From Providencia zhijiangensis (GTDB taxonomy: Bacteria; Pseudomonadota; Gammaproteobacteria; Enterobacterales; Enterobacteriaceae): DNA of 64,000 nt. Both the position numbers and the translations under genes were made by a program. A model generated the notes under the pieces. The model searched no databases. It was not told the DNA's origin and saw only the letters and a program-made list of their open reading frames with translations. Every line of letters begins with the position of its first letter. The stretch's first letter is position 1. The stretch is from the NCBI RefSeq assembly GCF_030315915.2, contig NZ_CP135990.1, forward strand, positions 1,798,001-1,862,000, in the 5' to 3' direction. This document shows, piece by piece, positions 27,105 to 55,751 of the stretch.

Positions 27105-27184
27105 GAATCAGAGTGAAATTATATGGACGAAAAATCGCTCTATGCCTAAATTGTTAACCTGACTACTTTTAATGTATAAAATAA

Positions 27185-27202
27185 GCGCCTTTATTCAGGC
27201 GC
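27185..27202 (-). terminator. Short hairpin terminator
   Basis: GCGCCT/AGGCGC, perfect 6-base-pair stem with a 6-base loop. On the minus strand it is followed by TTATTTTATAC, so it best fits the hydrolase gene ending at 27224; it may also serve the + strand gene. Confidence 0.55.
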
Positions 27203-27223
27203 GTATTTACAAACTTAACGTTA

Positions 27224-28117: not shown

Positions 28118-28253
28118 TTTATTTCCCTATTTTTGGCGATAGCTATTTATGCAATAACTCAGCAAGAAAGGCTAGCGCTAAAAAAAACAATCGTTACCAA
28201 TTTAAACGCCATTTACTTTAGTTATTAATAATAAATCGACTTTGTTAGAGAAC

Positions 28254-29441: not shown

Positions 29442-29551
29442 ATAAAGTTCCAAATAATTGCGGTCAGTAAATAGTTTCAAGCGTGAATTGATCTTATCTG
29501 GGACATTATTGATAATAAATATCACTTCTGTGGCTTCATTGGGGACAAATC

Positions 29552-30478: not shown

Positions 30479-31104
30479 CTGTCTTTCTTGGCATATAAAT
30501 AGACCGAAGCCCGAGAAACCCCAAGGTGTTGCGCGATGGTATCCATGGATTTTTTAATATCAAGAAGGCCTTCTTTGCGTAAAATTTCGATTAAAGCAAC
30601 GCGGTCATCCGCCTTCAAGGTACGCGGAGTGGCGGCGATAGAAGCGGCGTATTGATCGATGCGAGTACGGATTGCTTCGCTGCCATTAGGTTCCAGATGC
30701 TCTTTAACGGGGCTGCATCCCACTTCTGTAAATTGTGACAGCATGCTTTGCATACTGCGAAACTGGGTCATATCTAAATTGAGGCACAATGCGGCAACAT
30801 ATTGCCCAGTTTCATCTTTGATACCGATGGATGTACTTTTGGCTGGGCGTCCATCTGGAAATTGATTGGCATAATTGGAGATGATATTGGGGAAATCGGC
30901 AGATTCAATACGGGCGAGACCCAATTCGGTTGTTGGTTGACCCTCTTTGCGCCCAGAGAGGTTGTTATGAATCGAAATAATCGAATGCTCAGGGTTTTTC
31001 AGATCATGGACCACCACTTCACAGAAAGGGGCAAATGTTTCACTTAGCCCTTGTGCTATGGCTTCAATTTGTGCCAATAAACTGTTTTCTTGTGGTTTTG
31101 CCAT
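30475..31104 (-). CDS. YheO/DauR-like PAS-domain regulator
   Basis: A 209-residue regulator with a YheO-like PAS domain (about 5-125; FAPFCEVVVHDLKNPEHSII) and a C-terminal helix-turn-helix (about 165-205; DTIAQHLGVSRASVYLYAK). DauR represses D-arginine catabolism in Pseudomonas; members usually control amino-acid catabolic operons next to them. Here it is the third gene of an operon with RidA and a PLP dehydratase. Its Shine-Dalgarno sequence, GAAGGGG, can be paired by an upstream GCCCCTTC (see 31112-31179). Confidence 0.86.
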   Translation of the reverse strand: MAKPQENSLLAQIEAIAQGLSETFAPFCEVVVHDLKNPEHSIISIHNNLSGRKEGQPTTELGLARIESADFPNIISNYANQFPDGRPAKSTSIGIKDETGQYVAALCLNLDMTQFRSMQSMLSQFTEVGCSPVKEHLEPNGSEAIRTRIDQYAASIAATPRTLKADDRVALIEILRKEGLLDIKKSMDTIAQHLGVSRASVYLYAKKDS

Positions 31105-31111
31105 AACTCTA

Positions 31112-31179
31112 CCCCTTCATCTATTTTGGATATCTCTTTAAATATTAAACTATTTTTTTCAATTCTAATAGAGAAGGGG
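31112..31179 (-). promoter_or_regulatory. Leader hairpin that can sequester the regulator gene's ribosome-binding site
   Basis: On the transcribed strand, CCCCTTC (31179-31173) then CTATT can pair with AATAG and GAAGGGG (31118-31112). That is 7 plus 5 base pairs around a loop of about 35 bases. The second arm is the Shine-Dalgarno sequence, 7 bases before the ATG at 31104. Inference: translation of the regulator is tuned by this structure, perhaps through ribosomes finishing the upstream gene. Confidence 0.5.
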
Positions 31180-31189
31180 CATAAATTGC

Positions 31190-32158
31190 TTAAGCTAACA
31201 TTAATTCTGCGAAGCGCTTAATGTCCACATTTCCGCCGCTGATAATAATCCCAACGCGTTTGCCGTGCAGCTGTCCTTTCATTTTCAAGGCGGCAGCGAA
31301 AGAGAGGCAACCGGTCGGCTCCACAATCATTTTCATGCGTTCAGCATAGAACTTCATGCGATCGACTAATTGCGCATCGGTCACGGTTAAAATGTCATCC
31401 ACATTCTGTTTGATCAGCTCAAATGTGTAGTTCCCAACATGTTGAGTTTGAGCGCCATCCGCGATAGTTTTCGGAGTTTCAATATGCACGATTTTCCCAC
31501 TACGGAAAGATTGTTGCGCATCATTGCCCGCTTCAGGTTCCACACCGTAGATTTTGCAGTTTGGTGATAAAGCTCGTGCTGCCAACGCACAACCAGACAG
31601 TAATCCACCACCGCCGAGACAAACAAATAGGGCATCAAGCTCGCCAACTTCCTCGAACAGCTCTTTCGCGGCAGTACCTTGACCCGCAATAATGTCCACA
31701 TGGTCGTAAGGTGGGATGATGGTCAGCCCTTCTTTTTCTGCAAGATCGCGACAAAGTTGCTCTCTATCTTGGGTATAGCGGTCAAATCTAATCACTTTAG
31801 CGCCATAGCCTTGGGTGGCGGCAACTTTGACTTCTGGAGAGTCAATCGGCATCAATATGGTGGCTGGAATCTTCAACATTTGCGCCGCCAGCGCGATACC
31901 TTGCGCATGGTTTCCTGACGAAAATGCGATAACTCCCGCTTTCTTTTGCGCAGGGGTGAGCTGTGAAAGGGCGTTTAACGCGCCGCGAAATTTAAATGCC
32001 CCCATACGTTGGAAGTTTTCACATTTAAAGAATAACTCAGCGCCAAACTCATTGTTGACTGTCGTGGACGTCATCACTGGGGTTTTGTGTGCAATACCTG
32101 CAATGCGCTGTGCTGCGGCTTCGACATCTTGATAGGTCGGTAATGTTAATTCAGACAT
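31190..32158 (-). CDS. PLP-dependent threo-3-hydroxyaspartate ammonia-lyase / serine-threonine dehydratase
   Basis: A 322-residue fold-type II PLP enzyme. The cofactor lysine is Lys56 in GAFKFRGA. SSGNHAQGIA and the CLGGGGLLSGCA phosphate loop are present, and IISGGNVD stands near the C-terminus. The length and absence of an ACT domain fit the serine racemase/threo-3-hydroxyaspartate dehydratase group rather than biosynthetic IlvA. I chose ATG 32158, with GGGG 6 bases upstream. RidA is just upstream, 44 bases away, and a DauR-like regulator downstream. RidA would clear the reactive enamine made by this enzyme. Confidence 0.87.
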   Translation of the reverse strand: MSELTLPTYQDVEAAAQRIAGIAHKTPVMTSTTVNNEFGAELFFKCENFQRMGAFKFRGALNALSQLTPAQKKAGVIAFSSGNHAQGIALAAQMLKIPATILMPIDSPEVKVAATQGYGAKVIRFDRYTQDREQLCRDLAEKEGLTIIPPYDHVDIIAGQGTAAKELFEEVGELDALFVCLGGGGLLSGCALAARALSPNCKIYGVEPEAGNDAQQSFRSGKIVHIETPKTIADGAQTQHVGNYTFELIKQNVDDILTVTDAQLVDRMKFYAERMKMIVEPTGCLSFAAALKMKGQLHGKRVGIIISGGNVDIKRFAELMLA

Positions 32159-32202
32159 GATATACCCCATTATTAAATGGCTGATTGGTAATAACTTGAT
32201 TT

Positions 32203-32634
32203 TTATAACAATGAACTAGCCGCTACAGCGGTTGCTTCAATTTCGATCCCCGCACCAAAATGCAGTTTACTGACACCCGCAACAGCGCGAGCAGGACGAA
32301 ACTCGCCAATCCAATTGGCATAAATTTGATTAAATACCGGCCAATTGTCCATGTCCGCGATATACACCCGAACTTGAACCAATTGTTGCCGACCGACACC
32401 ACTGGCAGATAAGCAAGCCTCTAAATTTGCTAATACAAGTTCAGCTTGCTCGGCAAAGGGAGCATCTGCATGGACATTTCCTTGGCTATCTGTGGGTAAT
32501 TGTCCCGATATAAACACGAAACCATTCGCCGTGACGGTGTGGGAATAGTGCCCTCTTGGTGGAACCAACTGGGAAGCATTAGTGTAAACAATATTGCTGC
32601 AAACGATATTGGTAGAAACGGTATTTTGGCTCAT
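32203..32634 (-). CDS. RidA-family enamine/imine deaminase
   Basis: A 143-residue protein with the RidA signatures FISGQLPTD, the substrate-binding Arg116 in RPARAVAGV, and a terminal GAGIEIEATAVA. RidA proteins hydrolyse 2-aminoacrylate and similar imines released by PLP dehydratases. The N-terminal 18 residues are an unusual extension with NTVS-TNIV-SNIV-type repetition. It is the first gene of the operon with the dehydratase and the DauR-like regulator. Confidence 0.88.
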   Translation of the reverse strand: MSQNTVSTNIVCSNIVYTNASQLVPPRGHYSHTVTANGFVFISGQLPTDSQGNVHADAPFAEQAELVLANLEACLSASGVGRQQLVQVRVYIADMDNWPVFNQIYANWIGEFRPARAVAGVSKLHFGAGIEIEATAVAASSLL

Positions 32635-33022
32635 TGTTTTTCCTCATTCGGAAATTTAATTTATACAATTAGTCTAATATTGGACCATGTGTTTAGTCAA
32701 TGGCTTTTTTGCTGTTTAAATGAACTAAAAATTTTCGTCAAATTGCCGATGATATCTGTGCAGATCAGTCTAAAACTGAGAAAAATTGTTATAGACGGTA
32801 TTTTGCTCACGACTTTATACATTGCTGGCCAATCTTCCATAATTAGGGGGATTTGGCGCAAGAATTGGGAAAATAGCGGGGGAATATTTAAATTATTGGT
32901 ATTTAATTCCAGATGAATAATTAAGCAGTAAAGTTAAATAATCAGGAATAAGAATAATCAAATTGAGATGAATAACTAAAAATGATAAGAAGTTGTTATA
33001 TAACTACATTTAGGAAATTAAC
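32635..33022. other. Intergenic region between ridA-type operon and the yehI-type operon
   Basis: About 390 bases with no supported gene. It must hold two divergent promoters. Visible structure: a near-palindrome GTCTAATATTGGAC (32672-32685, one mismatch) close to the ridA-type start, TTAGTC repeated at 32669 and 32693, and a perfect 10-base palindrome GTTATATAAC (32995-33004) just before the DUF4132 gene. The first may be an operator for the DauR-like regulator. Confidence 0.45.
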
Positions 33023-36000
33023 ATGGCTAAAATTACCTTTGACCTTCTGGCTATTTATGGCGAAAAAGGGGACACTGCAGGATTACAATATTTACAAGAA
33101 TCCCTGCTTCCTTTCGCTGCATTTGAAGAAAGCTTACCCAAATCGCTCTTTGATTATGTGATGGAGAGTAAATCCCCTGAAATTCTTATGAAACTGGGGC
33201 AGTTGGACAAAGAAAAAGCCACAATTTTGTTAGACAAACCGGGAACGGTGGATTGGTGGTGGGGAAGCCACAGTTTTGATGCCGGCTCGTATAGCAAAGT
33301 GATCCGCCAAGGTAAAAATGCTCGCCATAAACTGTATTCCAAAGTGGGTGATGATATTACGCCAGCGCAGATCGCGCGTTTTGCAAAAGTGGTCGCGGCG
33401 GCTTGCCAAGAGGTGAATATCAAAATTCTGACGCCAGAATTGCCGTCTTGGATGCTGTATTTACTGTGTGATGCGTTTGTAACCACCTTTGAAAATTCAC
33501 GCCATGCTAAATATGAACACCGTAAACACTGGAACTACGATCTGCTCAGTCAGTTAGTGGAAAATGAAGCCGAACAACCGGGTAACACCGTGCTATACGG
33601 TATTTTTGATAGACAAAACCTGTCTGATTATCACTACGAAAATATGGCGTTATTATTCGCTATCCCAGGTTTAAAAGAATACTTAATTGCTGAGCAAGAT
33701 TTTATTCGCCAAAGCCTGCTGAGCAATTTATCCGCCAGTGGTCAGATCCAATTGATCGATATCCTGAGAAAAGACGAGGCGCTGTATAGCGTGTTTGCCG
33801 ATATTTTAGTGCTATTGGCAACCAGTTCACTGAAAACCGTGCGCTCAGCGGCTGAGCCAGTAATGTCTATTCTGCCGGAAGAGGCGGTTAAAACCCACTT
33901 AACCAAAGTACTGCTTGAAGGAACGCCAAAACAGCGTACGCAAGCGGCGGATCTGTTTGCCCGTATTGGTAAAGATAGAGATATTCTTGAAGCAGCATTG
34001 AAAGGGGAAACCAACAAAACTGTCCTCAAGAGTATTGAAAGTGCTATTTCTCGTTTTGATGTGATGGATTGTGCGAGCGAAGTGGAAGCGGTAGAAATTC
34101 CAGACGTTATCCCGATGGAAGATACGCCATTGCCAGCAAGTGCCGTCGATATTTTGGTATCTAACTTCCGTGAAATGCTGCAAAAAGCCAAAGAAAATGC
34201 TGAGCGTGAACTGGAAGAAAATAAGCAAGAAAAGCATAAATACACGTGGTCACAACGCCATTACAAAGAGTTCAGTCAACACAGTGAAGACGAGTGTGCT
34301 GGCTTATTAGCTAAATTAAACTCGGGCGTTGGGGTGATCACTGATCATGAATACAATGTCATCAAGCACAAAGAGCGCATTAATAATTTACCGGAATTCA
34401 CGCTATTCCACGCGTTGCGTTTACTGAGTCATAACCGTTCTGATGTTGAGCATTTTTCTCACTATCAACTCACTCGTGAAGTTCCCGTTCGCATCCTGTC
34501 GCAGCTCGATTTACGTCAATTAGAAAAAGGGCTTGAGCAGTGCAATTTTAAAAATGCGAGCCGCTTAATTGCTGACTTATGCCTGCGTTCATACAGTGAT
34601 GGATTAGGGCTATTTAGAGCGCCGGAACAAATTTGGCCGTTCTTTATGCAGTATCCTGATTTCTTAAGTGAAGCGCTGGGTCTTATCCCGCAGCACCAAG
34701 GGCATCGTTATTACCAAGAGTATGATGCGTCTAACGCGGTAACCATTTTGGGTAAATACCCGACCATTCCAGCGCGATTCATTCCTCGCATTATGGAGTT
34801 GGCGCTGGGTGAAAACAAAACCCACCGTTTAAGCGCTCAAAAATTGCTGGAAACCTTACCAAGCATTCACGTGAATGCGGCAGAAGGCCTTGATTCTGGT
34901 AAACAAGAGATCCGCGTGACTGCCATCGAATGGTTAGCTCGATTAAAACATCCAGATTCCCTAAAACCGCTGTACGCGTTGCTGAAAAAAGAGAAACGTG
35001 AAGTGGTAAGAGCCGCATTATTAACGGCATTAGAGCAATTTGGCGAAGATATTTCCGGTTACTTAGCACCAAAAGTTTTGCTAGCAGAAGCGCAAAAAGG
35101 CTTAAAAGCCAAAGCACCGGCGAGTATGGCATGGTTTGATCTGGACGCTATTCCAGCCATGACCTGGCAAGATAATAAAAAGGTGGACGCGGACATCATC
35201 CGCTGGTGGATCATTCTGGCGGTGAAGTTAAAAATGCCTGCGGGTAATGGGCTATTACAGCGCTATATCAGCTTATTATCATTAGACAGCCAGCGTAAGT
35301 TAGGTAGCTTTATTCTGAACAGTTTTATTAGCCAAGATGTGGCGGGACCGTCACTGGAAGCGGCGATGGCGGAAGCGGAAAGAGACGCGCCATCACGCTT
35401 GAAAAACTACCAAGATTGGCTAAAACGCTGGCCTGAATACTATGCCAAGTATGAAAACTTCACCCTTGAGCAGACCATCAACGAGATCAAAAACGAAGTA
35501 TTAGGTCGTTATTTAGGCTCGGCTATCAGTGAAAAAGGGATGCTTGCGCTGATTTGTGGTGTGGAGGGACATGTTGCCGTAACCATGCTGCGTAACTATA
35601 TGCGAGACCATTACCAGCGTCGCGCTCAAATTGAAGCGATGATTGACGCGATTGCCGTCAGTAACGACCCGCTGATCATCCAGCTTTTATTATCACTATC
35701 GCGTCGTTATCGTACCGCATCGGTCCAAGAAAAAGCTCGTGGATTAGTCTCTGATATTGCGCAGCGTAACGGTTGGAGCGCGGATGAACTGGCAGACAGA
35801 ACCATCCCAACGGCAGGTATGGACGAAACTGGCACCTTAGTACTGGAATATGGCGATCGCACGTTTACCGCCAAACTCGATGCTCAGCAAAAACTGGTGT
35901 TATTTAACCCAGAAGGCAAAGAGATCAAAGCACTGCCAGCGGCACGCAAGACTGATAATGAAGAGCTGATTAAAGAGTCGAAAAAACTCCTGACATCCAG

Positions 36001-36757
36001 CAAAAAAGAGCTTAAGCAAGTTATTGAATTACAGACTGCGCGTCTGTATGAAGCGATGTGTGCAGAGCGTCTGTGGAGTACGGCAGATTGGCAGGAATAC
36101 ATTCAAAATCACCCAGTGATGCGTGGTCTGATTGAACGACTGGTTTGGTTAGAAGTGAAAGATGGCAAAGTGATCAACCAATTCCGCCCATCCGATGATG
36201 GTTGCTTATTGAACCTCGATGATGATGAAGTCGAATTAAGCGCAGACTCCAGCATCAAGTTGGGTCATGCGGCGTTACTGTCTGATGCAGACCGTAAAGC
36301 GTGGATTGCCCACTTTAAAGATTACAAAGTTAAATTCCTATTCTCGCAGATGGATCACACCATTCCAGATCTGGCGTTAACATTAACCGAAATCGAAGAT
36401 AGAAAAGGCTGGCTAACGGATACCTTCACCTTACGCGGCGTGTTAACCAAAATGGGGTATCAGCGCGGTCAAGCGGAAGACGGCGGAAGCTTCTGTCATT
36501 ACTTCAAATATTTCTCCAGCCTAGATTGCTATGTGTATATGGAATTCAGTGGTAGCTATGTCCCAGAAGAAAATATCCCTGCGGTGTTGTACTCCTTGAG
36601 TTTCGACCAAGCACAAAAAAGCTCGTGGGATAGAGGCTATGTGGAACTGAAGAACGTGCCGCCGATCCTGTTAGCCGAAAGCTATGCTGACTACCTGAAA
36701 GTCGCGGATGCCTGTAGCGGTTTTGACCCTGAATGGGAAAAGAAAACCCCGTGGTAA
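33023..36757 (+). CDS. yehI: DUF4132 protein (YehI family)
   Basis: A 1244-residue protein, no signal peptide and no membrane segments. Much of the middle (about 250-720) looks like helical HEAT-type repeats, for example the TVRSAAEPVMSILPEEAVKTHL and EIRVTAIEWLARLKHPDSL blocks. A charged linker lies near residue 390. The C-terminal DUF4132 region starts with RKAWIAHFKDYKVKFLFSQ at about 1090 and ends near 1230. The family (E. coli YehI) has no established function; a scaffold is plausible. First gene of a five-gene operon; the next start is 38 bases on, with an almost identical leader (TTTAGGAAA...CATGGCTAA). Confidence 0.85.
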   Translation: MAKITFDLLAIYGEKGDTAGLQYLQESLLPFAAFEESLPKSLFDYVMESKSPEILMKLGQLDKEKATILLDKPGTVDWWWGSHSFDAGSYSKVIRQGKNARHKLYSKVGDDITPAQIARFAKVVAAACQEVNIKILTPELPSWMLYLLCDAFVTTFENSRHAKYEHRKHWNYDLLSQLVENEAEQPGNTVLYGIFDRQNLSDYHYENMALLFAIPGLKEYLIAEQDFIRQSLLSNLSASGQIQLIDILRKDEALYSVFADILVLLATSSLKTVRSAAEPVMSILPEEAVKTHLTKVLLEGTPKQRTQAADLFARIGKDRDILEAALKGETNKTVLKSIESAISRFDVMDCASEVEAVEIPDVIPMEDTPLPASAVDILVSNFREMLQKAKENAERELEENKQEKHKYTWSQRHYKEFSQHSEDECAGLLAKLNSGVGVITDHEYNVIKHKERINNLPEFTLFHALRLLSHNRSDVEHFSHYQLTREVPVRILSQLDLRQLEKGLEQCNFKNASRLIADLCLRSYSDGLGLFRAPEQIWPFFMQYPDFLSEALGLIPQHQGHRYYQEYDASNAVTILGKYPTIPARFIPRIMELALGENKTHRLSAQKLLETLPSIHVNAAEGLDSGKQEIRVTAIEWLARLKHPDSLKPLYALLKKEKREVVRAALLTALEQFGEDISGYLAPKVLLAEAQKGLKAKAPASMAWFDLDAIPAMTWQDNKKVDADIIRWWIILAVKLKMPAGNGLLQRYISLLSLDSQRKLGSFILNSFISQDVAGPSLEAAMAEAERDAPSRLKNYQDWLKRWPEYYAKYENFTLEQTINEIKNEVLGRYLGSAISEKGMLALICGVEGHVAVTMLRNYMRDHYQRRAQIEAMIDAIAVSNDPLIIQLLLSLSRRYRTASVQEKARGLVSDIAQRNGWSADELADRTIPTAGMDETGTLVLEYGDRTFTAKLDAQQKLVLFNPEGKEIKALPAARKTDNEELIKESKKLLTSSKKELKQVIELQTARLYEAMCAERLWSTADWQEYIQNHPVMRGLIERLVWLEVKDGKVINQFRPSDDGCLLNLDDDEVELSADSSIKLGHAALLSDADRKAWIAHFKDYKVKFLFSQMDHTIPDLALTLTEIEDRKGWLTDTFTLRGVLTKMGYQRGQAEDGGSFCHYFKYFSSLDCYVYMEFSGSYVPEENIPAVLYSLSFDQAQKSSWDRGYVELKNVPPILLAESYADYLKVADACSGFDPEWEKKTPW

Positions 36758-36794
36758 TCATTGAGTAATCGACGCATAAATTTAGGAAACCAAC

Positions 36795-37904
36795 ATGGCT
36801 AAGGCGAAAAAAGTAACAGAAGGCGTTCTGCGTGAAAGCGCAGAAGTGCGCTTTGCGGATGAATTAGAGCGATTAACCCAAGCGGATAAAGCCAACCCAA
36901 AACCACAAGGTTGGCTACGTTCCCCACGAGCGGTGCGACAATTTATTCTTGGGGATGAAGCGCTGCAAATTACCCCCAAGTTTTTTGGTGACGATGCGCT
37001 AGTAGATCGCGCCATTGTGACCTTACTGGGTAAACAAGGGTTAATGCTGGTAGGGGAGCCGGGTACGGCGAAATCCATGCTGTCCGAGTTATTAGCGGCG
37101 GCGATCAGCGGTGACTCCGGTTTAACCATTCAAGGCACGGCGGGTACCACGGAAGATCATATTAAATATTCGTGGAACTACGCGCTGTTACTGGCGGAAG
37201 GTCCAACTGAGAAAGCATTAGTGAGTTCACCGCTCTACCAAGGAATGCAACAAGGCAAAATTGTGCGTTTTGAAGAGATCACTCGCTGCCCACCTGAAAT
37301 TCAGGACGTGCTGGTCAGTATGATGTCTGAGAAGCAAATGATGATCCCTGAAATGAAAGATAATGCGCGGATCAGCGCCAAATCAGGCTTTAACTTGATT
37401 GGTACTGCCAACTTACGTGACCGCGGTGTGCATGAAATGTCATCGGCACTTAAGCGTCGATTTAATTTCGAAACCGTCAAACCCATCCAAGATCCGGCAT
37501 TTGAAATTGAACTGATCAACAAACAATTGACCGTTGAACTTGGCGAGCTGGATGGCAAAGTGACTGTCCCAACAGATGTGATCGAATTATTAGTCACGAC
37601 GTTCCAAGAATTACGTTCAGGCAATACCAAAGATGGTGGGAGTATTAAAACCCCAGATGCGGTGATGTCTACGGCGGAAGCGGTTAACATCGCTTATGCC
37701 TGTGCATTGGAAGCGCATTATTTAGGGGATGGCACGCTGAGCGCAGGCGCGGTCGCGCGCCAGTTGATTGGTGTGGTACTCAAAGATAATGCGGATGATA
37801 TCAAACGGATGCGTTATTACATTGATAACGTTGCCCGCGAACGTGCGAAACAGAGCGAAGCATGGAAAGCCTTTTTCGATGCATCCCGTGAATTCTGGCA
37901 ATAA
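36795..37904 (+). CDS. yehL: MoxR-family AAA+ ATPase (YehL)
   Basis: A 369-residue MoxR ATPase. Walker A is GEPGTAKS (87-94); the Walker B strand is IVRFEE (156-161), so the usual Asp-Glu pair reads Glu-Glu; sensor 1 is GTANLRD (Asn206); arginines Arg221/Arg222 follow in LKRRFNFE. MoxR ATPases act as chaperones that load metal or remodel partners bound by VWA proteins. It belongs with the VWA gene at 40519. The Glu in place of the Walker B Asp may slow ATP turnover or be the subgroup norm. A 10-base-pair hairpin lies between it and the next gene. Confidence 0.9.
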   Translation: MAKAKKVTEGVLRESAEVRFADELERLTQADKANPKPQGWLRSPRAVRQFILGDEALQITPKFFGDDALVDRAIVTLLGKQGLMLVGEPGTAKSMLSELLAAAISGDSGLTIQGTAGTTEDHIKYSWNYALLLAEGPTEKALVSSPLYQGMQQGKIVRFEEITRCPPEIQDVLVSMMSEKQMMIPEMKDNARISAKSGFNLIGTANLRDRGVHEMSSALKRRFNFETVKPIQDPAFEIELINKQLTVELGELDGKVTVPTDVIELLVTTFQELRSGNTKDGGSIKTPDAVMSTAEAVNIAYACALEAHYLGDGTLSAGAVARQLIGVVLKDNADDIKRMRYYIDNVARERAKQSEAWKAFFDASREFWQ

Positions 37905-37916
37905 TATCCGTCGTCG

Positions 37917-37946
37917 CAGTGTGGTGGTAAATACATCACCACACTG
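37917..37946 (+). other. Intra-operon hairpin between yehL and yehM
   Basis: CAGTGTGGTG and CACCACACTG form a perfect 10-base-pair stem with a 10-base loop. No T-run follows, so it is unlikely to terminate; more likely it affects mRNA processing or the relative yield of the ATPase and downstream genes. Confidence 0.6.
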
Positions 37947-37967
37947 TCCCTATGAGAGACATCATCG

Positions 37968-40526
37968 GTGAGTTTATCAAACATCACATTGCCAGAACGG
38001 CTACAGCAGGCGCTTGAACAGTGGAAAACACTGGGGGATCAACAGCTCTATTTTGCCCCCGTTCGTCACCATAGTCCCGCCTGTGCTTATAGCGTATTGA
38101 GCTTAATTGAACAGGTTAAGCCTGATTACGTGCTGATAGAAGGTCCCGACAGTTTTAACCCATTAATCGCGGGTTTATTGGATAAAGAGACTCGGCCACC
38201 AGTGGCGATTATGGGGCAAACTACCCTGAAAAGTGCGCCCACTGAACAAGATGAAAGTGACGCTGTCACGAGGTCGGCTTATTTCCCATTTTGTGAATAT
38301 TCCCCTGAGTGGCAAGCGTTACACGTAGGGCAGCAGCATCAAGCTCAACTGCGTTTTATTGACTTGCCATGGACAGCGCAGGTGGAACTTGACTTAGAAG
38401 GCGAGAATCAGCATCAAAGCTTGCAACGGGAACGTTATCTTGCCCATAGCTTATTTATTGCTCAGCTAGCGAAAAAGTGTGGGTGCCGTGATCACGATGA
38501 GCTGTGGGAACATCTGTTTGAGTTGCGCCCATTAACCTCGGTTGCCAATTGGGTTGATTTCTTCCGTGATACCTTTATTTGGTGTGCCTTGGCACGATTG
38601 GATTATGAGCCGGAAGTGCTTGCTTCTGAAGGATCAATTCAGCGTGAAGCCCATATGCAGGCGCATATTCAAGCGATTAAATCCGCAGAGCCAAACGCGA
38701 AAATTGTGGTCGTGACGGGCGGTTTTCATACCCTGGCACTGCTTGAAGGGCTTGGGGATGGGGCGGCGCAGCAATTTAAACTCTCTTCCGAGCAACAAAA
38801 GCAATTTACGGCTCAGCAAAAGTTGGCAGAACGCGACAGCGCTTGGCTTATCCGTTATAGCTTTGACCGGCTCGATGCATTAAATGGTTACGCCTCCGGC
38901 ATGCCTTCTCCCGCATTTTATCAAAAAGTGTGGGAAGGGTTGTTGGCGCAGCGAGCGGATCAGGCAGTGCAAAAAGTGGCAGCGACGGCTGCATATCGAA
39001 ATCAGCTCGGTATTCAGTTTTTGGCTTACGTGGCTGAAGTATTACGAGAAAAGCAATTTGATGCAGCGCCGGGATTCTTATCCGTCAAACTCGCCGCAGA
39101 ACAGAGCTTGAGACTTGCCGCATTTCGTGGGCACACGGGGGCGGGTCGCTATGATTTATTAGATGGGCTGCAAAGTGCGTTTATCAAAGGCAGCTTAGAT
39201 GAAAGCCAAGATGAGCTGTGGCAGCAAATCAAAACCTGTTTTTCTGGCTTTACCTTGGGGCAGATCCCCAAAGGCACCATCACACCGCCATTGGTGTCTG
39301 AAACCTATTCATTGGCGAAAGGCTTTCGCTTTAAATTGGATGATACGTTAGCCAAAGTTAGCCGCTTAGATGTGTACCGTAATAAGCAACATCGCTTACG
39401 TAGCCGTTTTCTGCATCTTTTGAGTTTCTTAGAGATCCACTTCGCCAAACCGCTTTCTGGACCTAATTTTCTTTCAGGCAACCAGATGGATTTACTGTTT
39501 GAAGAGTGGCAATACGCGTGGACGCCGAATGTAGAAGGGGAGCTGATCGCGCTTTCAGAAAAAGGCACCCAATTAAAAGCCATTGCGCTGAATAAAATTT
39601 TGGCAATGGAAAAACAGCTTGAAGAGCAAGGCATCAGCCGTTCAAGCCAAAGCGCGGTGACGTTGTTGATGCAGGCAGCGTTGATTGGACTTCACCAACG
39701 CATTCCAAGGCTGTTTACCTTGTTAGACCGTTATATTCAGCACGATAGCCAGTTTGAATCATTAGTGGCCTGTGGCCATAAGCTGGTGCATCTATGGCGC
39801 GGGCGTAGCTTTTTTGATCTTGAAGAAGAAACGGGCATCAAACGGCGGATTGATAAAGTACTCTCTCAGGCTTTTTTCTGCTTAGATCAGGTGGCTCAAG
39901 GGGATGAACAGCAGCAAGAACACTATTTTAATGCGTTACTATCTTGCCGTGAATTAATTACCTTTATGCCGGAAATAAGCCGCAATACGGATTATTCCAC
40001 AGAATTTTATGCACAATTGAGCCGGTTGGATGGGCGCCTTAATCACGCGCCGCTGATTAAAGGGGCGGTTGATGCTATTCGTTATCTTGGTGGCCAAATT
40101 GATGAATCGGTACTGACCCAGGAAATTCAGCGGACGTTCAGTTTAGGTAGCGACCCGGAACTGGCTATCGGCTACTTCATTGGCATTATGCGTACTGCAC
40201 CGGAATTGGTTGTGCGTTTACCCCTATTAATAGAGTTACTCAATGAACTGTTGGGTGAGTGGGATGATGGACGTTTCTTGCAAGTGTTACCGGATCTGCG
40301 CTTTGCGTTTAGCCAATTAACCCCGAAACAGAATGCGCAAATGGCGCGGGTGGTCGCGCAAAAACTATCGATGGATACCCAAGATTTAACTCTCCATCAG
40401 ACACAATTTAATCAGCAACAATTACTCCAAGCCATGGAATTAGAACAAAAAATTCAGCATCAGATTGAAAATCAAGGGTTAACCGAATGGTTTGCGCTGC
40501 AAAATGAGGGGCTATCTCATGGATAA
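37968..40526 (+). CDS. yehM: DUF5682 protein (YehM family)
   Basis: An 852-residue protein starting at GTG 37968 (GAGAG upstream). The N-terminal 260 residues resemble the TraB/TIKI/EreA-like hydrolase layout: a strand then VRHHSP (Arg33, His34, His35), IEGPD with Glu58 at the next strand, and VVTGGFHT with His254 at the end. The remainder is mostly helical, with no recognised domain and no membrane segment. Family function is unknown. The hydrolase comparison is my inference from motif order. It overlaps the VWA gene by 8 bases, so the two are translationally coupled. Confidence 0.82.
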   Translation: MSLSNITLPERLQQALEQWKTLGDQQLYFAPVRHHSPACAYSVLSLIEQVKPDYVLIEGPDSFNPLIAGLLDKETRPPVAIMGQTTLKSAPTEQDESDAVTRSAYFPFCEYSPEWQALHVGQQHQAQLRFIDLPWTAQVELDLEGENQHQSLQRERYLAHSLFIAQLAKKCGCRDHDELWEHLFELRPLTSVANWVDFFRDTFIWCALARLDYEPEVLASEGSIQREAHMQAHIQAIKSAEPNAKIVVVTGGFHTLALLEGLGDGAAQQFKLSSEQQKQFTAQQKLAERDSAWLIRYSFDRLDALNGYASGMPSPAFYQKVWEGLLAQRADQAVQKVAATAAYRNQLGIQFLAYVAEVLREKQFDAAPGFLSVKLAAEQSLRLAAFRGHTGAGRYDLLDGLQSAFIKGSLDESQDELWQQIKTCFSGFTLGQIPKGTITPPLVSETYSLAKGFRFKLDDTLAKVSRLDVYRNKQHRLRSRFLHLLSFLEIHFAKPLSGPNFLSGNQMDLLFEEWQYAWTPNVEGELIALSEKGTQLKAIALNKILAMEKQLEEQGISRSSQSAVTLLMQAALIGLHQRIPRLFTLLDRYIQHDSQFESLVACGHKLVHLWRGRSFFDLEEETGIKRRIDKVLSQAFFCLDQVAQGDEQQQEHYFNALLSCRELITFMPEISRNTDYSTEFYAQLSRLDGRLNHAPLIKGAVDAIRYLGGQIDESVLTQEIQRTFSLGSDPELAIGYFIGIMRTAPELVVRLPLLIELLNELLGEWDDGRFLQVLPDLRFAFSQLTPKQNAQMARVVAQKLSMDTQDLTLHQTQFNQQQLLQAMELEQKIQHQIENQGLTEWFALQNEGLSHG

Positions 40527-41679
40527 GCAGCCAGAAGATGCGCAATTAACCGAAGAACAGCTTCAATTAGCAAAACGCTGGCGTCTTATTTTAGGTCAAT
40601 ATGCGGATGGTGCACTGGGGCAAGCGGCGCTAAATGGCGATGAGCTTAAAATCGAACGGTCATTGGATTTTTTATATCGTCGTGAATATCAACGTCGCGG
40701 TTTACGTCAGGAAGGTGGCCGTCATGGATCGCTAGATGCGTCCCAACTGACAGCGGTTAACTGGCTGAACCAAGCCCGTAAATTGTTCCCAAACAGCACC
40801 TTTGAGCGAATGCAGTCGCAGGCATTAGAGCGTTATGAAATCAGTAGCTTATTAAAAAGTCCGCAAGCCTTGAATGCGATGGAGCCCACCAAAGCCTTAG
40901 CCAAATCGTTATTAAGTTTGCGCGGTAAAATGAGTGAGGAGACGCGGGATGCGGTGAAGAATATTATTCGCAAAGTGGTGGATGATATTTTAAGCCAGAT
41001 GCGTAATCAGTTTCGCCAAGCGCTAACGGGACGTCGTAACCGTTTTAAGCGATCGTTACTCCCCAATAGTCGTAATTTTGATTGGCGAGCTACTATTGCC
41101 GCGAATTTAAAGAATTATGATCAACAAAATCAGCGCTTAGTGATTAAAACTCCGCATTTTAACTCCCGCCAGCAACAGCATTTGCCGTGGGATGTGATTT
41201 TGTGCGTCGACCAAAGTGGCTCGATGGCGAGTTCGATTATGTATGCGGCGGTGTGTGCCAGTATTTTAGCGGCATTACCGACGGTACGTGTCTCTTTGGT
41301 GGTGTTTGATACTCAGGTGGTCGATCTCAGCCATTTAGCCCACGATCCGGTAGAAGTACTAATGACCGTGCAGCTCGGCGGGGGTACTGATATTGCGAAA
41401 GCGATGCATTATTGTGAGAGCTTGATCCGTAACCCGAAACGCACGGTGATTTCGTTGATCAGCGACTTTGAAGAAGGCGGGGCGTTGAATAACCTGCTCA
41501 ATTGCACGGAGCGCTTGAATAGCCAGCAAGTGAAATTGTTGGGATTAGCTGCTTTAGATGATGATGCATTGCCAGTTTATGATACGGAGATTGCTCAGAA
41601 GCTGGCGGATCGCGGTATGAGTGTGGCGGCGTTAACCCCAGAGCATTTCGCTCACTGGTTGGCTGAGGTGATGCAATGA
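40519..41679 (+). CDS. yehP: VWA-domain protein (YehP)
   Basis: A 386-residue protein. The N-terminal 215 residues are helical and basic. The von Willebrand A domain (about 223-385) has a complete metal-ion site: Asp231-x-Ser233-x-Ser235 in CVDQSGSM, Thr290 in GGGTDI, and Asp316 in ISDFEEGG. VWA proteins of this type are MoxR partners. ATG 40519 has GAGGGG 7 bases upstream; the longer TTG start at 40492 was rejected. It overlaps the upstream stop by 8 bases and the downstream start by 4 (ATGA). Confidence 0.9.
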   Translation: MDKQPEDAQLTEEQLQLAKRWRLILGQYADGALGQAALNGDELKIERSLDFLYRREYQRRGLRQEGGRHGSLDASQLTAVNWLNQARKLFPNSTFERMQSQALERYEISSLLKSPQALNAMEPTKALAKSLLSLRGKMSEETRDAVKNIIRKVVDDILSQMRNQFRQALTGRRNRFKRSLLPNSRNFDWRATIAANLKNYDQQNQRLVIKTPHFNSRQQQHLPWDVILCVDQSGSMASSIMYAAVCASILAALPTVRVSLVVFDTQVVDLSHLAHDPVEVLMTVQLGGGTDIAKAMHYCESLIRNPKRTVISLISDFEEGGALNNLLNCTERLNSQQVKLLGLAALDDDALPVYDTEIAQKLADRGMSVAALTPEHFAHWLAEVMQ

Positions 41680-43745
41680 GTTGGAAAACCGTTTATTTAC
41701 ATTATGATGATGACGCATTGGCTGTATTTGCCAACGTCGGATTGCTGCGCCGAGCTCGTAAGGATCTGGAAAGTAGTAAAGTTTCTCCGGTTTGTTTAGC
41801 GGATGGAACTTTTACCAGCGATGGCCAGAACGTCACATTAGATCCTCAAGGGGTTCAAAAAGCCAGCTGCGACTGTTCGGCTTCGGGTTGCTGCAAACAT
41901 ATTCTGGCGGCGGTACTTTGGGTACAAACAAACAGCGATGAACAATCGATTGATTCTACAGAAGATAGTTCGGAGTCTGTCGATATTGAACCACTATTAC
42001 CTGAGCTGTTGGCATTCGATGTTCCCACATTAATCAAGCAAAACAGTAAGCCCGATTGCCGCTTGGCGGTGAAGATCTTACAGGATTGGCAAGATCACAC
42101 CGTGATCTTAGACGACCAAGCTAACCAACTGAAAATCACGATCCCTCAGTACGACGAGCCAATTATCTATATTCGGGGTAATGGTTTTCAAGGGATGCTG
42201 TCGTCACTACCTGAGAAGCAGCAAAAAGCCCTACATTTGGCCGCGATCGCTAAGGTCTTTCTTCAGCATAATCAGCCGTGGAATTGGCCTGACGATCTGA
42301 TGCCTAACCGCGAGGCCACGCTAGCATTGAGCGACGATGAGCAAGCGGTGATTGCGACTATCCAGCGTTTTATTCACGATATGCTGCGTCAGGGGCTTTC
42401 CCATATAAGCCAAAGCAGCGCCACGCAGTTGCATTTATTGAATATGTCTGCGCGTGCGGAAGGTTTGCCTCGCTTAGCCAATTATTTAAAGCGTTTAAGC
42501 TATCAAGTGAAATTATTAGCCCAGCGCCATTTCACGATGGATGAAGGGCCGGTTTTGCGGTTTATCGCGCAGATCAGTGGCTATCTTTACCAATTAACTC
42601 ACGCCAGCGACGATAAAATTGCACAATTGCGCGCCTTTGGTCGTCGCCAATATGACAGTAAAACGGACATTCTTTCTTTGATCCCGATTCATGCCGAGTG
42701 GTGGCAAACTCAAAGTGGCGCCATCGGGGGAACATTTAGTTTTTGGGATAACCAAGAGAAAAAAGTGGTGCAGTGTAGTCAAGCGCGGGCCAATACCCTC
42801 GACCCGAATTTCACCCGTCACACTGTCTGGCAAACGCTAGCCATTTGGAAACAAACGGCAGATAGCCTGATGCGCAGTGGTTTTGAATTGCACAATCCAC
42901 GCTTATCCGATGAGGGTAAACTTGCGGCTAGCGGCGATAGTTATGCCGTCAGTAGCAGTGCAGTTAGCCAAGCACCGCACATTTCATTCGATGATTACCA
43001 AGCATTGAAAAGTGAGCTGGGGTTTGATGATTGGAAATCGGCAACGGCCTATTTCAATGCGCTCACTGATGATGCCCAGTTTGAACCGGTTGTGCTGCAT
43101 ATCGACAGCTACGAACCGCTGCATTGGAATGAAATCGAGCAGTGCGTCAGTTGGGCGGTGCTGGATGGGAACCAGAATCGGGCATTTTTGCGATTAAATT
43201 GGCAAGGTACAGAAAACCACAAAATTGAAGAACTGCGTTTTATCACTCAGAAAGGTTGGGAAATTAGTGCGGTATCCGTTCAAGTCAGCGTGTCTCAGCA
43301 GCAATTACAGCTTACGCCGAAAACGCTTTGGTTGAAAAAAGAGCAGGGTATTGAGCTATTTTACCTCGACTTTGAATCGGTACCTCGGAAAAAACAGTCA
43401 TCCAAGTTTATGACGTCGATTGCTGAATATATGGCGAAAAAGCAGCAAGACCGCACGGCATTTGCGCCAGTGCCAACACTGGCACAGCAGATTACCCGCC
43501 CAATCTTGGCGGTATTGGAAACACAAAGTTGCACAGGGCGCACACAATTATCAGCGAGTCAAATTGACGAGTTAAACTTTGTGGTCAGGACATTGCAGGA
43601 TTTGGGGATGCTATGGTTTGCTAAGCAACTGGCACATTACTTAACGCGGGAAAATCAAACCGCCGAGAATTTACTGCGTTTGGTGTATCTTTGCGACCAA
43701 TTTGAGCGTTCGCAAAAATTGATGCCTTTTGAGTTGAATAGCTAA
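41676..43745 (+). CDS. yehQ: SWIM zinc-finger protein (YehQ family)
   Basis: A 689-residue protein with an N-terminal SWIM finger, Cys65-x-Cys67-x5-Cys73-x-His75 (CDCSASGCCKH). SWIM fingers bind zinc and often nucleic acid or protein. The rest, about 600 residues, has no recognised domain. The start overlaps the VWA stop (ATGA), so it is translationally coupled. It is the last gene of the operon and is full length here. A short hairpin follows. Confidence 0.88.
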   Translation: MSWKTVYLHYDDDALAVFANVGLLRRARKDLESSKVSPVCLADGTFTSDGQNVTLDPQGVQKASCDCSASGCCKHILAAVLWVQTNSDEQSIDSTEDSSESVDIEPLLPELLAFDVPTLIKQNSKPDCRLAVKILQDWQDHTVILDDQANQLKITIPQYDEPIIYIRGNGFQGMLSSLPEKQQKALHLAAIAKVFLQHNQPWNWPDDLMPNREATLALSDDEQAVIATIQRFIHDMLRQGLSHISQSSATQLHLLNMSARAEGLPRLANYLKRLSYQVKLLAQRHFTMDEGPVLRFIAQISGYLYQLTHASDDKIAQLRAFGRRQYDSKTDILSLIPIHAEWWQTQSGAIGGTFSFWDNQEKKVVQCSQARANTLDPNFTRHTVWQTLAIWKQTADSLMRSGFELHNPRLSDEGKLAASGDSYAVSSSAVSQAPHISFDDYQALKSELGFDDWKSATAYFNALTDDAQFEPVVLHIDSYEPLHWNEIEQCVSWAVLDGNQNRAFLRLNWQGTENHKIEELRFITQKGWEISAVSVQVSVSQQQLQLTPKTLWLKKEQGIELFYLDFESVPRKKQSSKFMTSIAEYMAKKQQDRTAFAPVPTLAQQITRPILAVLETQSCTGRTQLSASQIDELNFVVRTLQDLGMLWFAKQLAHYLTRENQTAENLLRLVYLCDQFERSQKLMPFELNS

Positions 43746-43766
43746 TTTAGCTCGTAAAAATAGAAC

Positions 43767-43784
43767 GGGGAAAAGGAATTCCCC
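43767..43784. terminator. Short hairpin between yehQ and the MarR gene
   Basis: GGGGAA/TTCCCC with a 6-base loop. On the minus strand it is followed by GTTCTATTTTT, so it can end the MarR transcript; it also lies just after the yehQ stop. Confidence 0.6.
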
Positions 43785-43794
43785 TCTCTACATT

Positions 43795-44280
43795 CTATGA
43801 TTCTAAATGACCTAGAAACGTCCGTAGTAGCTGATTCAGCGCTTGTTGCTCTTCATTCGTCAGTGACGCCACCAAACGGGATTGATTTTCGGTATGGGCT
43901 GTCACTACGCGGTTGATCAAATCCAACCCTTCAGTTGTTAAGCTCACCAAAAAACCACGGCCATCATCCGGATTGACATGACGCGCGACATAACCGGCTT
44001 TCTCGAGCTGATCGATGCGGTTGGTCATCGTGCCAGATGTCACCATCAAGGTCGCTAGCATATCGCTGGGTGATAGTGTGTAAGGGGAACCTGCACGGCG
44101 CAAAGTGGCGAGCACGTCAAAACTTGATCGGTTTAGACCAAATTGGGTAAATACCTTTTCCATTTCACGGGTCAGGTGATGGGCAACGTTACCTAAGCGA
44201 CCAATCAGCCCCATGGCGCTGATATCAAGGTCGGGGCGTTCACGTTCCCACTGTTGAGTGATTTTATCGATTCTATCCAT
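43795..44280 (-). CDS. PecS-like MarR-family regulator
   Basis: A 161-residue MarR protein. It has the PecS-type opening (ITQQWERERPDLDISAM) before the winged helix (SSFDVLATLRRAGSPYTLSPSDM and NRIDQLEKAGYVARHV). PecS in Dickeya responds to urate or redox and represses the divergent EamA-type exporter gene pecM. Here too an EamA gene is divergent, and two matching palindromes fill the gap. ATG 44280 is preferred over TTG 44295. Confidence 0.85.
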   Translation of the reverse strand: MDRIDKITQQWERERPDLDISAMGLIGRLGNVAHHLTREMEKVFTQFGLNRSSFDVLATLRRAGSPYTLSPSDMLATLMVTSGTMTNRIDQLEKAGYVARHVNPDDGRGFLVSLTTEGLDLINRVVTAHTENQSRLVASLTNEEQQALNQLLRTFLGHLES

Positions 44281-44300
44281 AGGCAAATCATACAATAATC

Positions 44301-44346
44301 TATCTTGACGTCAAGGTAGTTTGAATTTATCTTGACCTCAAGATAA
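44301..44346. promoter_or_regulatory. Twin MarR-type operators
   Basis: TATCTTGACGTCAAGGTA (44301-44318) and TTATCTTGACCTCAAGATAA (44327-44346). Both are near-perfect palindromes on the core ATCTTGA-N2-TCAAGAT, with centres 27 bases apart, and fill the gap between the divergent MarR and EamA genes. They would let one repressor shut both promoters. Confidence 0.8.
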
Positions 44347-44364
44347 ATCAACGTGAGTGTATTC

Positions 44365-45243
44365 ATGAATAGATATTGGGTTCTGTTTTTAACGGCATTA
44401 GCACCGATAGTCTGGGGAAGTACCTATTTGGTGACCACGGAAATGCTGCCTGCGGGTATGCCTCTGACGTTAGCCATGCTCCGCGCCTTGCCGGCGGGTT
44501 TGCTGTTGTTGCTATTTTTACGCAAATTGCCTCAGGGGATTTGGTGGGGACGAGTACTGATTCTCGGCATTTTAAATTTTTCGCTATTTTGGTGGTTGTT
44601 GTTTATCTCCGCATACCGTTTACCGGGTGGCGTGGCGGCAACGGTGGGAGCGATTCAACCGCTGATTGTGTTATTTCTTAGCCGTTGGCTATTAAGCAGC
44701 CCGCTATCGAGTATTTCGATATTTGCCGCACTGAGCGGTATTTTCGGGGTGGCTATTTTATTATTGACGCCAAGTGCTGCGTTAGATTTAACGGGGATTA
44801 TTGCGGGCTTAGCTGGGGCATTTTCTATGGCTGCAGGAACGGTACTGAGCCGTCGTTGGCAGCCTCCAGTCTCAGCATTGACCTTTACCTCGTGGCAATT
44901 AACCGCAGGTGGGTTAGTCTTACTGCCTTTCGCCCTATTACTTGAACCTACGTTACCTTCCTTGAGTTTGTTAAATATCGCGGGTCTGAGTTATTTAACT
45001 TTGATCGGTGGCGCACTGACTTATGCATTATGGTTTCGTGGTCTCGCTATCTTAGGACCCAGCTCAGTAGCATCGCTGGGATTCTTAAGCCCGATGAGCG
45101 CTGTTATCCTCGGGTGGCTGTGGCTAGACCAACAACTCAGTCCATTACAGTTACTCGGCATGTTGGTGATTTTACTCAGTGTTTGGGGTAGCCAAAAAGC
45201 AGAGCGTCAATTGGCCTTGAAAAGGCAGCAACAAGCCGTTTAA
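44365..45243 (+). CDS. PecM-like EamA-family exporter
   Basis: A 292-residue, ten-segment DMT transporter with the opening APIVWGSTYLVTTEMLP and a second repeat SMAAGTVLSRRWQPP. Together with the divergent PecS-like gene it forms a PecS/PecM pair; Dickeya PecM exports indigoidine. No indigoidine synthase is seen here, so the substrate is unknown. ATG 44365 chosen over GTG 44353. A strong terminator follows. Confidence 0.86.
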   Translation: MNRYWVLFLTALAPIVWGSTYLVTTEMLPAGMPLTLAMLRALPAGLLLLLFLRKLPQGIWWGRVLILGILNFSLFWWLLFISAYRLPGGVAATVGAIQPLIVLFLSRWLLSSPLSSISIFAALSGIFGVAILLLTPSAALDLTGIIAGLAGAFSMAAGTVLSRRWQPPVSALTFTSWQLTAGGLVLLPFALLLEPTLPSLSLLNIAGLSYLTLIGGALTYALWFRGLAILGPSSVASLGFLSPMSAVILGWLWLDQQLSPLQLLGMLVILLSVWGSQKAERQLALKRQQQAV

Positions 45244-45250
45244 ATATCAA

Positions 45251-45275
45251 GGGCACTTCTAGGTGCCCATTTTTA
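45251..45275 (+). terminator. Terminator of the EamA gene
   Basis: GGGCAC/GTGCCC perfect stem, 6-base loop, followed by ATTTTTAA; it starts 8 bases after the stop at 45243. Confidence 0.85.
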
Positions 45276-45303
45276 ATGCGTGGTGACTATATGTGTGGTG
45301 ACA

Positions 45304-45945
45304 ATGTTATTTCCTGATGAAGAAAATACGATTGAGATTGCGCCTGATGCTTATCTCCTTAAAGGCTTTTTGCTTGGGCAAGTGGAGCCGCTATTGGCTG
45401 CATTGTTTGAGGTGATTGCTCAAGCGCCTTTGCGTCATATGGAAACCCCAGGCGGGTACGCCATGTCTGTGGCAATGACCAATTGCGGTGATTGGGGCTG
45501 GGTTACGGATAATAAAGGTTATCGCTATTCTGCCGTCGACCCGATGACTCAGCGGCCATGGCCCATGATGCCCGCGCTATTTAAACAGCTGTCGGAGAAT
45601 GCCGCTGAAAAAGTGGGTTTCTCTCATTTCGATCCCGATGCTTGCCTTGTTAACCGCTATGGTGTCGGGGCTAAAATGTCGTTACATCAAGATAAAGATG
45701 AAGCAGATTTCTCCCAACCGATTGTTTCTTTTTCATTAGGATTGCCCACTATCTTTGATTTTGGAGGAAAGACGCGAAAGTCTCCACGTCAAGCTGTTCC
45801 ATTGGAGCATGGCGATGTTCTGGTATGGGGCGGGCGTTCGCGGCTCAATTATCACGGTGTACGACAAATCAAATCAGGCGTTCATCCTCAACTTGGGGCT
45901 TACCGCTTTAATCTGACCTTTCGTCGTTCGCAACCTAAGAAGTGA
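45304..45945 (+). CDS. alkB: Alpha-ketoglutarate-dependent DNA dioxygenase AlkB
   Basis: A 213-residue enzyme that oxidatively removes alkyl groups from 1-methyladenine and 3-methylcytosine. Iron ligands are His128 and Asp130 (SLHQDKDE) and His184 (YHGVR); oxoglutarate is bound by Arg201 and Arg207 (RFNLTFR). TPGGYAMSVAMTNCG is the nucleotide-recognition segment. I chose ATG 45304; a GTG 24 bases upstream is weaker. A terminator separates it from the upstream exporter, so it has its own promoter, and no Ada box is visible there. In E. coli it is co-transcribed with ada; here it is about 28 kb away. Confidence 0.93.
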   Translation: MLFPDEENTIEIAPDAYLLKGFLLGQVEPLLAALFEVIAQAPLRHMETPGGYAMSVAMTNCGDWGWVTDNKGYRYSAVDPMTQRPWPMMPALFKQLSENAAEKVGFSHFDPDACLVNRYGVGAKMSLHQDKDEADFSQPIVSFSLGLPTIFDFGGKTRKSPRQAVPLEHGDVLVWGGRSRLNYHGVRQIKSGVHPQLGAYRFNLTFRRSQPKK

Positions 45946-46036
45946 CTCGTTTCTGCAAGCCAAAAAATATCATTGAATATTGAATAATATCCGCATATAA
46001 CTGTTGGCTTGTTTTTAACTTAACGGTAGGTTGCCA

Positions 46037-50299: not shown

Positions 50300-50320
50300 A
50301 CCTCACTGAAAGGACCATAA

Positions 50321-50731: not shown

Positions 50732-50751
50732 ATGTGACTGTGTTTAGCATG

Positions 50752-50786: not shown

Positions 50787-50805
50787 TAAATGATCATCAA
50801 CAGGA

Positions 50806-53683: not shown

Positions 53684-53718
53684 CAAGTTTTTTGTCGTAA
53701 ATTCAACATCAACACCAC

Positions 53719-55731: not shown

Positions 55732-55751
55732 TAAGAATAAAAGCAAAAAAA

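Follow-up and report, generated by a model that had tools for sequence, protein, structure and literature searches.

The 64,000-nucleotide stretch of Providencia zhijiangensis DNA analysed here (contig NZ_CP135990.1 of assembly GCF_030315915.2, positions 1,798,001 to 1,862,000, referred to as the window) contains a tightly packed operon at 33023-43745. It consists of five complete open reading frames (ORFs), all on the + strand, which encode DUF4132, MoxR, DUF5682, VWA and SWIM proteins in this order. The five genes form a conserved unit and their proteins co-vary, and one of them, the DUF5682 protein, probably contributes a hydrolase-like domain.

33023..36757, + strand: DUF4132 protein, 1244 amino acids, with HEAT repeats at about 622-675 (Pfam) and a C-terminal DUF4132 domain at 965-1112
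36795..37904, + strand: MoxR-family AAA+ ATPase of the YehL type, 369 amino acids, AAA_5 match at 1.5e-35
37968..40526, + strand: DUF5682 protein, 852 amino acids, GTG start, Pfam DUF5682 match at 3.4e-100
40519..41679, + strand: VWA (CoxE-like) protein, in-frame ATG at 40519, VWA_CoxE match at 5.7e-48, first motif of the metal ion-dependent adhesion site (MIDAS) DQSGSM
41676..43745, + strand: SWIM zinc-finger protein, 689 amino acids, SWIM match at 3.4e-4, barely above the cut-off

The first two gaps measure 37 and 63 bases, the VWA gene overlaps the DUF5682 gene by 8 bases (counted from the ATG at 40519; an alternative upstream TTG at 40492, the pick of the ORF caller, is also in frame), and the SWIM gene overlaps the VWA gene by 4 bases (ATGA). 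The initial annotation of this DNA had described the same five full-length, packed genes with both overlaps and the 63-base gap, and only its first gap, given as 38 bases, needs adjustment. Pfam confirmed the names of all five proteins, including DUF4132 (PF13569, 4.2e-32) and HEAT_2 (5.5e-9), NCBIfam gave only sub-threshold matches for them, and the genome carries a single DUF5682 match. The G+C content of the operon is 46.9%, compared with 40.0% in window positions 1-26000 and 39.3% in 50001-64000, and it is raised in the flanking genes too. Promoter and terminator scans were near chance (17 against 18.8 expected and 16 against 13.2). SOS control of the operon was considered and rejected, since no LexA-type box was found upstream: the 20-base LexA consensus, allowing up to three mismatches, had no site anywhere in the window, and the pattern CTGT-N8-ACAG (at most one mismatch) occurred 12 times against 15.4 expected, with no occurrence in the intergenic stretch 32635-33022.

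To follow the conservation of the operon, a DUF5682 alignment was used to scan genome contigs. Of 578 confirmed relatives, the best 80 were kept as named loci, a selection in which distant DUF5682 genes are under-sampled, and removal of 25 loci with too little flank left 55. All five families are encoded in 51 of these 55 loci, 47 by domain coordinates and four (L081, L092, L093 and L096) after the VWA gene had been confirmed separately. By domain coordinates alone the complete set is present in 57 of the 80 loci, many of the others being cut by contig ends. Among the 55, L098 lacks DUF4132, L078 has only DUF5682, VWA and a SWIM match, and L036 and L076 have DUF5682 alone. The 80 loci span Proteobacteria, Actinobacteria, Firmicutes, Planctomycetes, Verrucomicrobia, Acidobacteria-type and Spirochaete bacteria (phyla assigned from record titles), and the commonest orders are DUF4132-MoxR-DUF5682-VWA-SWIM (29 loci) and MoxR-DUF5682-VWA-SWIM-DUF4132 (13 loci). 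As an outer control, 13 window genes outside the operon (24-52 kb) were each matched in at most five of 84 comparison loci, mostly two Providencia loci. Because the operon recurs in 51 of 55 loci and its outer neighbours do so in so few, the five-gene grouping exceeds chance. The initial annotation had proposed a candidate conserved five-gene system around a MoxR-VWA core, and this proposal is borne out in several phyla, where gene order is kept rather than being restricted to the genus with the genes otherwise scattered.

The proteins also vary together. Over 57 loci, the correlation between distance matrices lies at r 0.90-0.97 for each of the ten protein pairs, and none of 500 permutations reached the observed value for any pair, although part of this co-variation reflects species kinship. 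In a sample of 398 genomes of the window's phylum, its own genome included, DUF5682 is present in 14 and the operon-type SWIM protein in nine, all of them within the 14 (hypergeometric 3e-15, kinship ignored). DUF4132 occurs in 11 of the 398 genomes, nine of them within the same 14. It was rejected as a marker of the operon: the other two genomes have no DUF5682, and both show a DUF4132-DUF7737 architecture.

The five remaining DUF5682 genomes of the 14 carry a second version of the operon, SWIM-DUF5691-MoxR-DUF5682-VWA, which lacks DUF4132. It was found in all six loci L120-L125, which comprise these five genomes and a second copy in genome G249, and again on a Methylosinus plasmid (L020); a single intact DUF5691 gene is present in L125. 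The relationship between the SWIM proteins of both versions extends past the finger (87.6% over 134 columns). A common origin of DUF5691 and DUF4132 was considered, but profile comparison gave only 4.1-4.2% and no homology is claimed; a HEAT character common to both rests, for DUF5691, on sub-threshold Pfam hits. That DUF4132 and DUF5691 replace each other between the versions suggests that the scaffold is modular. On the Methylosinus plasmid the VWA signal (L020:12169-13394) runs across three frames, so that this copy looks broken or mis-sequenced.

A profile of the DUF5682 N-terminus (residues 22-325) was built from 57 diverse relatives, in all of which R33-H34-H35-S36-P37, E58, S112-P113-E114, D132, R226, M230, G251 and H254 are invariant, and was compared with profiles of ChaN (22 sequences) and TraB (27 sequences), from which two of 24 and three of 30 loci, respectively, had been dropped beforehand. 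With hhalign, the DUF5682 N-terminus matched ChaN at 81% over 185 columns, next to 80% for the known superfamily members TraB and ChaN compared with each other. Five DUF5682 controls (N-terminus against VWA, MoxR and SWIM; C-terminus against TraB and ChaN) did not exceed 0.9%, and four TraB and ChaN controls did not exceed 2.2%. In these alignments, H34, E58, E227 (Asp in ChaN), M230, G251 and H254 fall on conserved ChaN positions. The R and M of the TraB RN..M motif are matched by R226 and M230, and the late His of TraB by H254. Tiki proteins have a 2His/2Glu catalytic set according to a passage in PMC6254334, and DUF5682 keeps three of these four residues. Weak Pfam matches to ChaN appeared in 10 of the 57 members (best 0.03), to TraB in three (best 1e-4) and to Erythro_esteras in one (0.16); the other families listed besides DUF5682 matched one or two members each, with chance-level single hits among them. 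The structural model (mean predicted local distance difference test, pLDDT, 89.1; predicted template modelling score, pTM, 0.81) comprises an N-terminal alpha/beta domain, in which strands and helices alternate and the invariant motifs lie at strand ends, and a mostly helical C-terminal remainder. From sequence comparison, the N-terminus (about residues 22-325) thus looks like a Tiki/ChaN-type hydrolase domain, which suggests that PF18934 (DUF5682), listed as a family of unknown function, belongs with the Tiki/ChaN families. DUF5682 had initially been annotated as a protein of no established role, a description that the profile match and the motifs correct.

A Walker A pattern and a sensor-1-like motif are each present in 105 of 108 MoxR family ORFs, and the Walker B pattern as written in 29. 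The solved relatives nearest to MoxR by sequence are midasin and McrB. In 108 VWA ORFs, the MIDAS is represented by DxSGS in 100, the Thr pattern in 84 and the later Asp pattern in 105. YehL is described as one of seven MoxR subfamilies in PMC3893208, and the window has features expected of it, a MoxR-type AAA+ protein with Walker A and, adjacent to it, a co-encoded VWA protein bearing a MIDAS. In the PDB, the DUF4132 profile (35 relatives) matches HEAT-type repeat proteins, both natural and artificial, and the DUF4132 protein is presumably a scaffold or adaptor. Six actinobacterial operons (L079, L080, L087, L089, L092 and L095) contain two or three DUF4132-matching ORFs, which suggests scaffolds of more than one kind. 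In Xenorhabdus szentirmaii (L024:4461-8771) the DUF4132 gene is present as two separate ORFs, suggesting an interrupted copy.

The SWIM family match was found in 33 of 44 relatives, and the CxC..CxH finger pattern in 42. In the structural model of the window protein (mean pLDDT 89.4, pTM 0.71), the finger at about 65-75 is accompanied by a helical middle and a helical end, and the region at about 325-570 can be read as two barrels that resemble oligonucleotide/oligosaccharide-binding (OB) folds. A Foldseek search of the PDB with this model ranked HIN-200 domains first (E 6e-4 to 4e-3, probability 1.00, TM-score by target about 0.4), followed by telomere-end proteins and RPA, and among viral models baculovirus LEF-3 came first (E 7e-4, TM-score about 0.3). 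This ranking suggests two OB-like folds.

The history of the operon appears to include horizontal movement. The Providencia MoxR is 86% identical to that of Proteus, 66% to Acinetobacter, 62% to Massilia and 49% to E. coli, whereas the E. coli protein is 74% identical to a copy on an Iodobacter plasmid. The other four proteins repeat this pattern, except that for SWIM Massilia (33%) stands slightly above Acinetobacter (30%). Relationships of the operon proteins therefore do not track those of the species, and transfer of the whole operon is the simplest reading of the identities, with ancient duplication and loss as the alternative. The Iodobacter operon (L018:4321-17569) lies on the mobilizable plasmid pl1 and adjoins type I restriction-modification genes; an extra DUF4132 gene and transposase genes are located upstream, and its SWIM protein is split into two ORFs.

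Within Providencia, DUF5682 is present in 17 of 23 genomes, the window's own included. The dN/dS ratio (nonsynonymous to synonymous substitutions), taken from 66 pairs for each gene after removal of saturated or too-close ones, has a median of 0.059 for DUF5682 (10 usable pairs), 0.017 for MoxR (15) and 0.015 for VWA (10). As judged from these three genes, the operon is under purifying selection in Providencia. Window positions 26600-46000, from a ferredoxin-like gene (25701-26585) to AlkB/LtaE-like genes, vary among Providencia species, and the genomes G002, G004 and G009 each lack different parts of this region; its G+C is elevated around the operon. G004 has the RidA and AlkB neighbours about 270 bases apart and lacks the operon and the MarR and EamA genes; G002 and G009 retain other parts.

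In E. coli, the same system is represented by the yeh genes. The yehI-Q stretch has matches in 5351 of 5426 complete genomes, with a single place covering at least 80% of it in 3976, and yehM, the DUF5682 gene, is covered to at least 80% in 5166 of the 5426, with 5289 of 5291 places on the chromosome; these counts reflect coverage of matches and not gene intactness. In one strain examined, yehQ is frameshifted and a DUF4132 gene present in tandem carries an internal stop. Two tandem DUF4132 genes next to metG were seen in L190:5235-12671, and the annotation gives the first of them an internal stop. The older molR molybdate locus maps near this site. The E. coli DUF4132 region is also an insertion site for a resistance transposon, as reported in PMC9334617. 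The initial annotation had recognised the YehI/L/M/P/Q proteins as relatives, which is correct in that they represent the same system, but they are not the nearest ones, as the MoxR identities indicate.

The interpretation that we put forward, tentatively and with somewhat less than even confidence, is a MoxR-VWA machine that feeds or gates a Tiki-type hydrolase, with a role in maintenance or stress likelier than one in anti-phage defence. The operon proteins would assemble as one complex, in which the MoxR ATPase is expected, by analogy with its family, to form a hexameric ring that works with the VWA protein, whose MIDAS would grip a partner peptide. The large DUF4132 HEAT protein, or DUF5691 in the second version, would scaffold the complex, and the SWIM/OB protein may, going by its predicted fold, recognise the target, possibly nucleic acid or nucleoprotein. 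ATP-driven remodelling would then expose or feed the target to the Tiki/ChaN-like domain of DUF5682, which could hydrolyse a peptide, ester or amide bond at an active site predicted from the motifs. The likeliest use of such a machine would be protein quality control or stress maintenance of a specific cellular complex.

Several observations weigh against this interpretation. The DUF5682 N-terminus matches TraB at 46% over 47 columns only, Pfam finds no ChaN match in 47 of the 57 members, and R226 stands opposite a Trp in ChaN. The first Glu of the catalytic set (E-x-H) is missing in DUF5682: position 32 is V or I in all 57 members. The first Gly of the motif is replaced by Pro in 46 members and retained in 11. 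The equivalent of position 32 is Glu in the 22 ChaN sequences and mostly Thr in the 27 TraB sequences (85%), and the latter indicates that superfamily members can be without this Glu. Foldseek returned nothing at E of 0.001 or below for the full-length DUF5682 model and no Tiki-labelled protein among the 50 listed of 295 matches; the outcome of this search is apparently dominated by the helical C-terminus. DUF5682 genes of full length, with their motifs intact and none of the other four families in their flanks, were found in a member of the Blastocatellia (L036:9929-12376), a member of the Planctomycetaceae (L043:5628-8177) and an unclassified metagenome-assembled genome (L076:9926-12433), and these proteins may work without the other four or with distant partners. 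In the SWIM protein of the window, region 325-570 is acidic (net charge -13, isoelectric point, pI, 4.9), with a median pI of 6.2 over the 44 relatives; the first OB fold alone has a median pI of 8.9 over the 44, but 5.8 in the window protein. By net charge, residues 325-570 do not form a basic binding region, and this argues against plain DNA binding.

Different from hydrolysis, the operon could encode a chaperone for metal or cofactor insertion, in which MoxR-VWA remodels a target enzyme, as in CoxD-CoxE and the chelatases, and DUF5682 binds metal or haem like ChaN without cutting. The VWA protein is CoxE-like, the closest profile relative of DUF5682 is named as a haem-binding uptake family, and section 8 of PMC7159879 gives metal-cluster insertion as one role of MoxR-VWA pairs. 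DUF4132/MolR is linked to molybdate in a passage of PMC8533742, and yehM is among the genes mutated in copper-exposed E. coli according to an excerpt of PMC12409786, where it is, however, one of many. No family, metal-related or other, lies beside the operon in more than seven loci, the largest other gene cluster being LysR-type regulators in seven loci including the window, and DUF5682 retains the His/Glu/His of hydrolytic Tiki proteins; we consider metal insertion rather unlikely. A conflict system, anti-phage or other, an option named in the initial annotation, is likewise given a low probability; SWIM/OB would be its sensor and DUF5682 its effector. It gains from the patchy occurrence in the phylum and in Providencia, where the operon lies in a variable region with an empty site in G004, from relationships that do not follow species, from the plasmid copy next to restriction-modification genes, and from the MoxR-vWA conflict systems described by Kaur et al. 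2020 (PMC7159879). It loses from the near-universal, chromosomal yehM of E. coli and from the PADLOC search, which gave no significant match for the five proteins (best E 0.012). In viral contigs a pattern-based scan confirmed no relative, and among 50,697 records there was only a single faecal phage record, which is unverified. The flanks were scanned for 120 sampled of the 181 nearest ORFs at loci with at least three core families, using heuristic ORF calls. At 1e-10, 51 PADLOC models matched flanking ORFs, each of the 25 models listed in a single ORF, and the Pfam families present in more than one ORF (25 of 89 listed) are metabolic, regulatory or transport families. A defence island was rejected on this basis, as neither PADLOC nor Pfam revealed a recurrent defence family in the sampled ORFs, in a comparison that is descriptive and without matched control.

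A machine for DNA damage or nucleoprotein clearing, with SWIM/OB attaching to DNA- or RNA-protein lesions whose protein part DUF5682 would degrade, is very doubtful. In two libraries, Foldseek ranked nucleic-acid binders with tandem OB folds highest for the SWIM protein, and DdrO depletion raises the expression of a DUF4132 gene in Deinococcus (a finding mentioned in PMC8533742). Set against this are the low TM-scores of the HIN-200 and LEF-3 matches, the acidic OB region of the window protein and the missing LexA-type box upstream. A broader formulation, which we also regard as improbable, is a hitherto undescribed class of AAA+ machines in which the MoxR-VWA motor, the HEAT scaffold (DUF4132/DUF5691) and a SWIM/tandem-OB nucleic-acid sensor with a HIN-200-like fold would load nucleoprotein onto the Tiki-fold protease DUF5682, and which would serve as a system for protein-DNA or protein-RNA clearance or sensing. 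If this were true, such a machine would occur in several phyla, and E. coli K-12 would carry one whose function is not known.

In open-access full text, a corpus in which most subscription journals are uncovered, the term DUF5682 and the combination of MoxR with Tiki occur in no paper, and no description of the five genes as one system was found; a prior description is therefore possible. What appears to be new is the Tiki/ChaN-type reading of the DUF5682 N-terminus, suggested by sequence, and the SWIM protein modelled as a zinc finger with two OB-like folds. Assigning DUF5682 to a likely superfamily, with named candidates for its catalytic residues, makes a testable machine out of a group of DUFs, and the occurrence of its gene in almost all complete E. 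coli genomes is a reason to give it weight.

The features common to DUF5682 and the Tiki/TraB/ChaN/erythromycin-esterase superfamily are a His after strand 1, a Glu after strand 2, a late strand with a Met-containing motif before it and GxxH at its end, and the ChaN profile match. DUF5682 differs from Tiki, TraB and ChaN by its RHHSP signature, its large helical C-terminus and its association with an AAA+/VWA pair. The E. coli operon yehI-yehK-yehL-yehM-yehP-yehQ encodes the same five families in the same order, but it has a small additional gene, yehK, and the strains inspected carry a tandem DUF4132 gene upstream; its proteins are far from those of the window (DUF5682 25% identical) and nearer to the Iodobacter plasmid operon. 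The vWA-MoxR-VMAP ternary conflict systems (Kaur et al. 2020, PMC7159879) also combine MoxR and vWA with at least one further protein. However, the window MoxR scores 24.9 bits against a bpMoxR cut-off of 27, no Pfam match to the third component was found in the five window proteins, and the terms 'SWIM' and 'YehL' are absent from the main text of that paper. Section 8 of the same paper describes MoxR-VWA pairs in which a peptide is caught by VWA, whose bound partner the MoxR ring remodels. In RavA-ViaA and other MoxR-VWA pairs the ATPase is co-encoded with its VWA partner, as in the window. RavA-ViaA is described as a two-protein operon, to which the window adds three conserved partners, one with a hydrolase-like domain. 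If our interpretation is true, the hydrolase built into this ATP-driven MoxR-VWA complex would set it apart from the chaperone-type pairs known to date.

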